Assembly: GCA_028866895.1 (NCBI GenBank)
Contig: JAGWHF010000003.1
Span: forward strand, 1-64,000
DNA from: Nitrososphaerota archaeon
GTDB lineage: Archaea > Thermoproteota > Nitrososphaeria > Nitrososphaerales > Nitrosopumilaceae
Reading direction: 5' to 3'
DNA length: 64,000 nt
In this document: positions 49,251 to 53,190 of the stretch, piece after piece
How the letters are laid out: every line of letters begins with the position of its first letter
How positions within the stretch are numbered: position 1 is the stretch's first letter
Program-made: the position numbers and the translations under genes
Notes under the pieces: generated by a model
What the model saw: the letters and a program-made list of their open reading frames with translations, nothing else
Databases searched by the model: none
Told to the model about the DNA's origin: nothing

Positions 49251-51275
49251 CTAAACGTCTAGCTTATCAAGAATTTTAGAGATGTCAGTAATCGGTCTTC
49301 CATGAGACTCTATTTCCTGGCAGGCCGGAGGATTCTCAAGATAGTTTGGAATCCTGTCCGCAATTCTCTCGTCGTACGGCGCTATTATCTCGTTCTTGTA
49401 GAAAATCCCCGTGGGAATCTTGTCATCCCACTCGTTTGACTTTATGAGGGCCTGCGTGAGCTTGGCATTCTCCTCTTCCGGCGAGTCGATATGTACCACC
49501 GGGTCATACCCCGTGTCCTCCAGCTTGTATATCCTAGGCCTTGGTTTCTTCGTCGTCTCGTCAATGTTGTCCATGCCTGCAAACCAATCCCTCGTGTTTA
49601 TGTCGTTGTATGTCGGACATGGCTGCAAGACATCTATGAAGGAAAGCCCCCTATGCCTCACTGCAGCTATTATCAGATCCTTAAGATGCCTGACATCGTA
49701 TGCGTACCCCCTTGCCACAAAAGTATATCCGCTGGCAATAGCTAGCGCGATTGGATTTACGGACTGGTTGACGTTGGGTTCGGGGAGAGATTTTGTCTTC
49801 AGGCCCAGCTTGAGCGTAGGTGAGGCTTGCCCCTTTGTCAAGCCGTATACCGCATTGTTGAAAACTAGGTAGGTCATGTCCACGTTCCGCCTTCCTGCAG
49901 CAACAAAGTGTCCGGCCCCTATCCCAAGGCCGTCGCCGTCCCCGCCAGTAGCAACAACGGTCAATTCTGGATTTGCGAGCTTCGCCCCCTGGGCAAACGG
50001 AAGGAGTCTCCCATGCAGTGTATGAATGCCGTAGACGTTTACATAGTGTGATGTCTTTCCGGAGCACCCGACGCCCGAAAATATGGCTGCCTTGTGTCTT
50101 GGGATCTCCATCTCTGCAAGTGCCATCTGTATGGCATTTACGATCCCAAAGTCACCGCAGTTGTGAAGAATGGCATTTTCCGATACGTACGAGTTTACAT
50201 CATCCACCTCGAGATTGTAGACCGGCCCGTCATAGTCAAAGTTTTCAATATACTTTATTGGTACCAGAAAGTAATCAGGAAGGGAAGACATGGATGGTTC
50301 TCCTTGATGCCTCTCCTCCAGTCCGTTCCCCAAGTCCTTGCACGGTACGGCAACCCCCTCTACAACCCCTATCGAGTATGTGGCTCCACCATTGCCGTCC
50401 CCCTTCTCAACTGAAATTTCAGGAACCATGCCTTGCCTGAGAAGCAGTGTCTTTACCTGTTCACCAAGGGTCCTAGACCGGGTGGTTAACCTTTCCCGTC
50501 CCTGAACTCCTCCCCTCCAACCATTCCCCATCCAGAGGCCCGTCAACAAACTCTGCTGCTTTTCCAATGGCAGTAACATTGCAAAGTGAGGAATCTTTTC
50601 GTATGAAGGGCCAAACCAGTCAAGAAAGACAGTTGCAAGCATCTCAGAACGGAACATGGTCACACAATTCCCCGTCTCCCTAAAACCAGACAACCCGAAT
50701 GTCCGGTTCATGATTTCTTCGACGTCGTCAAGAAACCAGTTCTCACCAGGTTTACAAGCAAACCTTATTTCGTCATCCCACACCCCCCCGGCCACAAGCA
50801 TGTATCCGATAAGCCTGACGGTCTCCGCGTTGATTGGAACGGCATAGGGCAACTCCCCTCCCGGTCCTCTGCCTTCTGTATGGCATCCCACTTCTAAAGA
50901 TACCAAGTCGGCCTCCTCCTTCTGTACGGGGTATACGAGATAGTCCTCCAGTCTTATCCCGTCCGCCCTTGTCCATACGGCATCGAACTTGCGTTTGCCA
51001 TCCCTCTCGTCCCTCCTTCTTGCCACTAGCACGGGGTGCTCGTCCGTCAGATAGGTTTCCCCAAAGCAATAACCTACAATCTTGAAGACCCTCCCCCTGT
51101 GAATGTGAGATATGGTCTCGCTGACCTTGTGGTATCTCCCGTCCCTGCCAAGGACCCTCTCACCCGCCTTTACCTGTTGGATCTGCTTTACGGATGGATT
51201 GCAGTGGAGCAACGTGTCAGGAAGGACGCATCCTGGGCACCAGTCGTTGTGCACCTCAGTCTTATAGTCTGACAT
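49251..51275 (-). CDS. 2-oxoacid:ferredoxin oxidoreductase beta subunit, intein-containing precursor
   Basis: A 674-residue precursor. After splicing the 357-residue intein, the 317-residue protein reads [16 protein letters not shown] at the junction, the N-terminal signature of archaeal pyruvate/2-oxoglutarate:ferredoxin oxidoreductase beta subunits. The thiamine-diphosphate motif is [13 protein letters not shown] ... [15 protein letters not shown], and the C-terminal half is normal. It takes part in reversible CoA-dependent 2-oxoacid decarboxylation, passing electrons to ferredoxin. I use ATG 51275 (MSDYKTEV), one base after the alpha-subunit stop; upstream Met codons would overlap that gene. 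Confidence 0.92.
50160..51230 (-). other. intein with degenerate LAGLIDADG homing-endonuclease domain
   Basis: A 357-residue in-frame insertion interrupting the CPG|CGDFG motif of the beta subunit. Splicing residues look complete: Cys1 ([14 protein letters not shown], block A), block [14 protein letters not shown], block [20 protein letters not shown] and the terminal His-Asn before an extein Cys+1. The middle region carries two LAGLIDADG-like helices. Each has lost its catalytic Asp: [11 protein letters not shown] (usual ADG is AGG) and [11 protein letters not shown] (usual GDG is GNG). Splicing should therefore still work but homing should not. Confidence 0.93.
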
Positions 51276-51276
51276 A

Positions 51277-53190
51277 CTAGACACCATATGACAACACCTG
51301 CCTCTTCTCGGCCTTTCCGTCAATTATCTTCTTTATTGAATCACATATCTCAGAGCAAGTCATCGCTCTCCCCGTGTACTTGAGTACATAATAATCAACT
51401 TTCCTGTCCAGATACTGGTTTAGTATCTGCCCAAGCTGCGCGGAATGGTTTGCCTCAACATCTATTACGGTTCTTACATTCTGGAGCATTGCCTTGAGGT
51501 GTTTTGTGGGAAACGGGTTCAACAATTTTACCTGTATGAATCCAACTTCGTACTTCTCCCTCCTTAGCATCTCGATTGCATCAATAATAGGTCCCTTCGT
51601 GGATCCCCAGCTAATTATGCAGAAGTCGGAGACTCCATGGCTTACAACCTGTTCCTCGGCAGGTATCTTCTCCAGCGCAACATCGACCTTCCTTGCCCTC
51701 TTGTCCATCTTGTAAATCCTGTTTTCCGGATCCTCAGAAATGTGCCCTTCAATGTCGCTCTCATCCCCGGTGTTCCAGAAGATGCCATTTTCCAACCCAA
51801 GTCTTGACCTTGGTGAGATGCCGTCAGGCGAGGGTACAAACCTCTTGTAACCTAAACCTTCAATCTTCTCGAGCAGTTTGCCTCTTTCTATCGTGATCTT
51901 TTGTGGGTCAAACCTCTTCACGGTGGCAACCGTGCTTGCAATAAACTTGTCCATCATGTGAATGACTGGCATTTGGAAAATCTCCGCGTAATTGAAGCAC
52001 CGTGCAGTATCGTAAAACCCCTCCTCAATGTCCCCCGAGGCATACACAATCCTTGGAAAATCTCCGTGTCCGGCATGAATTGCAAAAAGCAGATCGTCCT
52101 GTCCATGCCGTGTAGGAAGCCCCGTTGAAGGACCGCTTCTTTGGTAGAGCGTTACTACGATTGGAACCTCGTTTATTCCGGCCCATCCCAGTGCCTCCGC
52201 CATGAGCGAGAACCCCGGTCCCGATGTGCTTGTGGCGGCCCTTGTTCCTGTCAGTGCAGCCCCTATCAACATACCTATTGCAGAGATCTCATCCTCCGTC
52301 TGCACAATCATGGTCGAGCCTGGCCTGTTGTTCTCTACGTCGAAGGTCTCGTTTGATTCCAAAAAGACACTCTCATCAGATGCGGGGGTGATTGGATAGT
52401 AGGATTGGAACCTGCAGCCTGCAGCCATCTTTCCAAGACCCGTGGATTGGAATCCTTGCACAAGTATTGTATCTGCCTCCTTTTGAATCCGGGACAGCTG
52501 ATACCCGTACTTTGGGAACTTGGCAGAAGCGAAATTGTAGGCATAGTTTGCCGCATTTCTGTTCATCTCCGCAATCTTTGGTTTGCTCGAAAAGACAGCC
52601 TCGACAGATCGGAGGAGCGTGTCAGGTGGCAGCCCCAAAAGACCGATTGACACAGATACCGCCAGCACGTTCAGCATCCTGAACATGCCCCTGATGACAG
52701 GATTTTGCATCTCCTCCGCAAGCGTGGCAAGGATCCCCTTGAATGAAACCGGATAAAGCATTACCCCCCTTTCCTTTGCAACCTCCAAAATCCCCCTTAT
52801 GGTAAACGGCTTCCCTTTGGATGTCAAAAATTTCTCAAGCCTTTCCTTGAATGGCCTGTCAAGCGTAGGAACTTCTTCTGCCCTGACATTTTCCAAGTCT
52901 GACTCGTATACAATCGCACCGTCATTATAGACGTCGTCAGCATGCCTGAAGACCGTTTCCGCATCAAAAGCGGCAAGCATGTTTATCCCATTTACGTTGG
53001 AATGTATTTCCCTGTCAGAGACCCTTACCCCAAAATAGCTGTGTTCTCCCTTGATATTGGAATAGTACTCCCTTTTTCCAAAAACCTTCAGGCCGCATCC
53101 GGCACACGCACCCGCAAAAATGTTGGCTGCTGACTCGACTCCACCACCCTGAGGGCCACCGATAACCCAAGTCAAATCCATAGAAGCCAC
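51277..53190 (-). CDS. 2-oxoacid:ferredoxin oxidoreductase alpha subunit (gamma-alpha fusion)
   Basis: 637 residues. The N-terminal gamma domain (about 1-190: [40 protein letters not shown]) is fused to the alpha domain. That domain has the [10 protein letters not shown] motif (about 270), [19 protein letters not shown] and [18 protein letters not shown]. This is the two-subunit archaeal type, best known from Sulfolobus, with broad 2-oxoacid use. The start is GTG 53190, about 25 bp from a TATA (TTATTAATATC); Met4 (53181) is an alternative. The beta gene begins one base after its stop. Confidence 0.95.

Follow-up and report, generated by a model that had tools for sequence, protein, structure and literature searches.

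The gene for the beta subunit of a KorB/PorB-type 2-oxoacid:ferredoxin oxidoreductase in the window (the whole 64,000-nucleotide stretch of DNA analysed here) is interrupted by an insert that is well supported as an intein, predicted from its residues to be self-splicing and to have lost homing. We consider it very likely that this is an allelic KorB intein at the CPG|CGDFG site that has been inherited with its host gene, keeping its splicing function while its homing function decayed. The source organism is placed in Nitrososphaeria and is of the ammonia-oxidiser type, with Thaumarchaeota/Nitrosopumilales MAGs, Nitrosotenuis chungbukensis, Nitrososphaera and Nitrosocaldus as named relatives. 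The gene and its surroundings are laid out as follows.

51277..53190, minus strand: adjoining upstream gene for the alpha subunit of a 2-oxoacid:acceptor oxidoreductase (open reading frame; identity read from sequence)
51231..51275, minus strand: N-extein of the KorB/PorB-type beta subunit, 15 aa, ending NDWCPG (translation; uninterrupted in 30 same-genus genomes)
50160..51230, minus strand: predicted intein, 357 aa, from C1 to H356 N357 and followed by Cys+1 (translation, alignment, Pfam domains, fold match to the TliVMA and PhoVMA inteins)
50910..51230, minus strand: N-terminal part of the predicted Hint splicing domain, with block A Cys1 and block B T62-x-x-H65 (alignment, from which the limits were chosen)
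50160..50285, minus strand: C-terminal part of the predicted Hint domain, with blocks F/G, ending HN (alignment)
49251..50159, minus strand: C-extein starting CGDFG (Cys+1), plus the stop codon (NF041171, TIGR02177; 5b48/5b46 beta subunits)

In the open reading frame list and its translation the minus-strand frame is open without a break from 51323 to 49251, and it encodes a precursor of 674 aa made up of 15 (N-extein), 357 (intein) and 302 (C-extein) residues. A sequence-only reading of this DNA had placed a 357-residue intein at CPG|CGDFG, and translation and alignment confirm its coordinates, length and splicing residues: the insert is exactly 357 codons, starts with CVLPDT and ends with NAILHN. 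The same reading had named the host a 2-oxoacid:ferredoxin oxidoreductase beta subunit, which agrees with the family model NF041171 (433 bits, cutoff 423), with TIGR02177, with the CXGC motif and with a match to 5b48_B (E 3.5e-114); the beta subunits of 5b48 and 5b46 match the C-extein. In 30 intein-free relatives of the same genus NDWCPG and CGDFG are adjacent, and joining the two flanks gives a protein 86-94% identical to the uninterrupted same-genus orthologues, so the insert is a true insertion and not a chance feature of the frame.

All of the splicing residues are retained in the window intein: C1, T62xxH65 (in TDEHP), H356 N357 and C+1. The positions usually held by the block F Asp and His read Asn throughout its clade. 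The two intein subclades differ here, as one has a penultimate His with Asn at the block F His position and the other has the block F His with Gly or Ser ahead of the terminal Asn. Pfam Intein_splicing and LAGLIDADG_3 were found in 25/25 members of this alignment (A3); the window intein itself matches Intein_splicing at E 9e-7, below the curated cutoff. Its AF2 model keeps the fold (pLDDT 80, pTM 0.81) and matches intein structures in Foldseek at E 4e-18, with TliVMA and PhoVMA among the best PDB matches, and the modelled structure thus points to a Hint fold.

Inteins with Cys1 and Cys+1 splice through a branched intermediate that is resolved by Asn cyclisation. The 674-aa precursor would accordingly be translated whole, and Cys1, Cys+1, the block B Thr and His and the terminal His-Asn would excise the 357-aa intein. 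Ligation would then give a beta subunit of 317 aa in which the CPGC [4Fe-4S]-ligating motif is rebuilt and the +1 nucleophile becomes a cluster ligand; in unspliced precursor, normal cluster formation is not expected. The beta-subunit gene was found in a single copy in the 2.26-Mb genome assembly, and splicing is probably still required because this is the one such gene found.

The homing endonuclease presents a very different picture from the splicing domain, and the following features carry the argument.

50286..50909, minus strand: degenerate LAGLIDADG homing-endonuclease domain, residues 108-315 (alignment, Pfam, AF2 model, invariant-column counts)
50790..50792, minus strand: first LAGLIDADG catalytic position, Ala147 (GCC) where relatives have Glu, in VAGG (alignment)
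50523..50525, minus strand: second LAGLIDADG catalytic position, Asn236 (AAT) where relatives have Asp, in MGNG (alignment)

VAGG and MGNG align to YIAEG and WRGDG of the allelic inteins, and the earlier claim that both LAGLIDADG acids are gone stands as E147A and D236N; in this alignment neither position of the window intein holds a catalytic acid. We compared 27 same-site inteins, 26 from the alignment plus L133. At the first acid, Ala in the window intein and Lys in two from Nitrosocaldus are the only departures from Glu; at the second, every intein has Asp apart from the window intein (Asn) and one from a micrarchaeon (Glu). Only the window intein has lost both, with 26/26 others keeping at least one and nearly all keeping both. 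The two Nitrosocaldus alleles (L062, L065) read YIAKG and keep the second acid, and their nucleases are possibly impaired. The charge of the domain has changed as well: its pI is 4.9 and its net charge -9, against a pI of 8.4-10.1 in the other aligned members except one from a micrarchaeon (6.6), and 7/8 clade-invariant Lys residues are gone. At columns invariant in 13 other clade members, the window intein is changed in 36/83 in the nuclease domain versus 7/75 in the splicing domain (P 1e-6), and any other clade member shows 0-8 changes at the invariant nuclease columns. Losses fall mainly on polar or charged positions (24/41, versus 12/42 for hydrophobic, Gly or Pro; P 0.008). Judged at the level of sequence, the window domain thus lacks both the acid at each helix end and the basic DNA-binding domain of an active LAGLIDADG enzyme.

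The dead state of the nuclease appears peculiar to the window lineage, as the motifs of other same-site copies are mostly kept. The window genome has more inteins (L141 at G000:C22:80500-87500, L139 and L140), with two in one SNF2-type helicase gene and one in RtcB; L139 is in a nucleotide-sugar dehydrogenase-like gene and its nuclease motifs are intact. A genome-wide loss of nuclease function was ruled out, since L139 keeps YVAEG and RGDG. In the KorB intein the LAGLIDADG domain presumably no longer cuts the empty site, and we infer that homing is lost because both metal-binding acids and the basic residues are gone; the element would then pass vertically. LAGLIDADG enzymes commonly decay after invasion (PMC13405050).

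The intein is patchily distributed. Sampling one MAG per species, we found it at the same residue in 5 of 37 same-genus genomes (the window genome and four others), an uninterrupted gene in 30 and no match in two, so relatives lacking the insertion, which the sequence-only reading had proposed looking for, do exist. The same-residue intein also occurs in 11/250 genomes of the family, in 23/400 sampled from the order, in a genome from a different family of the phylum (L133) and in two Micrarchaeota (L059, L060). Two genes of 685 aa from other families were ruled out as inteins, being fusions of alpha and beta subunits. CPG|CGDFG is therefore a recurrent intein site in Nitrososphaeria and not unique to the window genome. 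The earlier reading knew of no intein described at this site, and our search of the literature on inteins in KorB/PorB-type enzymes, Thaumarchaeota or Nitrososphaeria, with partial journal coverage, likewise found none described; the host site seems not to have been described before, yet is widespread in this archaeal group. On the extein tree, intein state must have changed about 10 times, with at least five of the changes forced by well supported branches. The micrarchaeal inteins group with those of Nitrososphaeria while their exteins are very far apart, which indicates an apparent transfer between phyla. No viral donor emerged from a search of viral contigs, where the inteins were distant ones (25% identity or short matches). 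Such a patchy, transferring distribution is the behaviour of a homing intein.

Within this distribution, the window extein is sister to that of an intein-bearing genome, L004 (support 100/89), and the intein tree puts the window intein weakly inside its genus (65/67). That weak placement leaves some room for horizontal arrival from a divergent unsampled lineage, in which much of the divergence would have accumulated there rather than by decay in place. Estimates of synonymous change per branch come out higher in the intein than in the extein, as such an origin would have it, but most pairs are saturated at synonymous sites and these estimates are unreliable. A dead nuclease could not home by itself, and at synonymous sites the Hint domain differs least from that of L004, the extein’s own sister (0.42 versus 0.52-0.67). 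We regard horizontal arrival as unlikely, and return to decay within the window lineage.

In Tajima tests of the window against its sister L004, with L048 as outgroup, lineage-specific changes number 73 versus 7 in the nuclease domain (chi2 54) and 18 versus 6 in the splicing domain, while the host protein is without acceleration in the window lineage (10 against 7). Likewise, the end branch of the window intein is 1.21 long, versus 0.06-0.11 in same-genus alleles, and the extein branches are near equal (window 0.038, sister 0.037). That the Hint domain has changed slightly more than in the sister is what might be expected if the whole element were dead, splicing included, and the gene a pseudogene. 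This is extremely improbable, given an open frame, a full set of splicing residues, an extein under strong constraint (omega about 0.02) and a genome in which this is the only beta-subunit gene found. Because saturation makes unconstrained branch dN/dS unreliable, we used a model in which dS is shared between extein and intein. Nuclease-domain omega in this model is 0.06-0.20 on the window branch versus 0.02-0.07 in the background, values that saturation makes rough, and the shift on the window branch has a 2dlnL of 2.2-8.6 (P<0.05 in 3/4 comparisons). An omega of 1 on that branch is rejected (2dlnL 11-40), so the nuclease domain has not been drifting freely over the whole branch. The omega values are compatible both with decay that set in recently, after the nuclease had long been active, and with a lasting need for a folded scaffold, perhaps one that aids splicing.

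In the CXGC motif that ligates the [4Fe-4S] cluster, the second Cys is the Cys+1 of the window intein, and the closest non-allelic relatives of this intein also lie at sites with a +1 Cys, namely GNPV|CGDLMW in an IscU-like protein, YGR|CVFCGLC and CGL|CVDACPF in NuoI and LETAC|CSVE in NuoB; some NuoI genes hold both inteins. Further related inteins are in radical SAM (CxxxCxxC) and Mrp/ApbC (CxxC) proteins, with host names read from sequence. We take the +1 cysteines in the IscU, NuoI, NuoB, radical SAM and Mrp/ApbC hosts to be Fe-S ligands, and these Fe-S-site relatives are L134, L135, L126-L132, L136-L138, L158, L163, L167 and L172. Other related inteins are at non-Fe-S sites, in hosts that read from their sequences as a Hel308-like helicase, a nucleotide-sugar dehydrogenase, a GHMP-kinase-like and a DNA-polymerase-like protein. 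In the Sulfolobus tokodaii enzyme StOFOR2 the CXGC loop ligates the [4Fe-4S] cluster through Cys12-Cys15 (PMC5020499).

This setting invites the idea that the intein is domesticated and regulates the enzyme through conditional splicing, dependent on redox, O2 or iron, at the Fe-S ligand cysteine. The company of related inteins at Fe-S ligand cysteines of other proteins is in keeping with it, as are the conserved splicing domain and the retention of the nuclease’s hydrophobic core while polar and basic residues were lost. However, a conserved nucleophilic Cys is simply a favourable intein site, close relatives live without the patchily present intein, and neutral retention is enough, all of which makes domestication quite improbable. 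Slightly less credible still is a broader version, in which the KorB intein is a branch of an archaeal lineage that moves between Fe-S ligand cysteines of unrelated proteins, with the splicing nucleophile itself a cluster ligand, and in the window, freed of homing, gates enzyme maturation by redox or iron state; much of the Fe-S site pattern would follow if these inteins favour conserved nucleophilic cysteines.

The sequence-only reading had paired lost homing with a continuing need for splicing, which our analysis favours, and had called the element domesticated, a term for which we find no support: a sole, apparently needed host gene and the need for precise excision explain its retention. 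The intein would persist because it is seldom excised exactly, and any imprecise loss would ruin the one beta-subunit gene found. A selfish element, fossilised and hard to lose, suffices to explain everything, and the intein is better called an immobilised or fossil homing intein. It neatly exemplifies an already known stage in the life cycle of inteins, that in which homing has decayed, and its host is an enzyme of central carbon metabolism in archaea of the ammonia-oxidiser type. A dead allele and several that seem to be live, all at the same site in one genus and with empty sites alongside, make a natural test set for the homing cycle, and the Fe-S ligand at the splice junction makes redox- or iron-dependent splicing directly testable.

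The nearest comparison is with the allelic KorB inteins (L004, L048, L058 from Nitrosotenuis chungbukensis, L053-L055 from Nitrososphaera, and others), which share the host and residue and are 51-60% identical within the clade, but which keep YIAEG, RGDG and a basic nuclease domain and presumably still home. The Mycobacterium SufB intein (PMC8891592) is likewise in an Fe-S related protein, one of Fe-S assembly, although the host and family are different. The direct precedent for a folded, acid-less and acidic LAGLIDADG domain is the PhoVMA intein of Pyrococcus horikoshii (PDB 7qst), which has lost the catalytic Asp residues and retains a folded LAGLIDADG domain, has a pI of 5.45 versus 10.23 in the active TliVMA, and in experiment neither bound nor cut its empty site (PMC8966425). 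PhoVMA is in a V-ATPase subunit, at the VMA-b site, and shares about 15% identity with the window intein, yet it is among the best fold matches to it, and the decay established there by experiment is the one we infer here.
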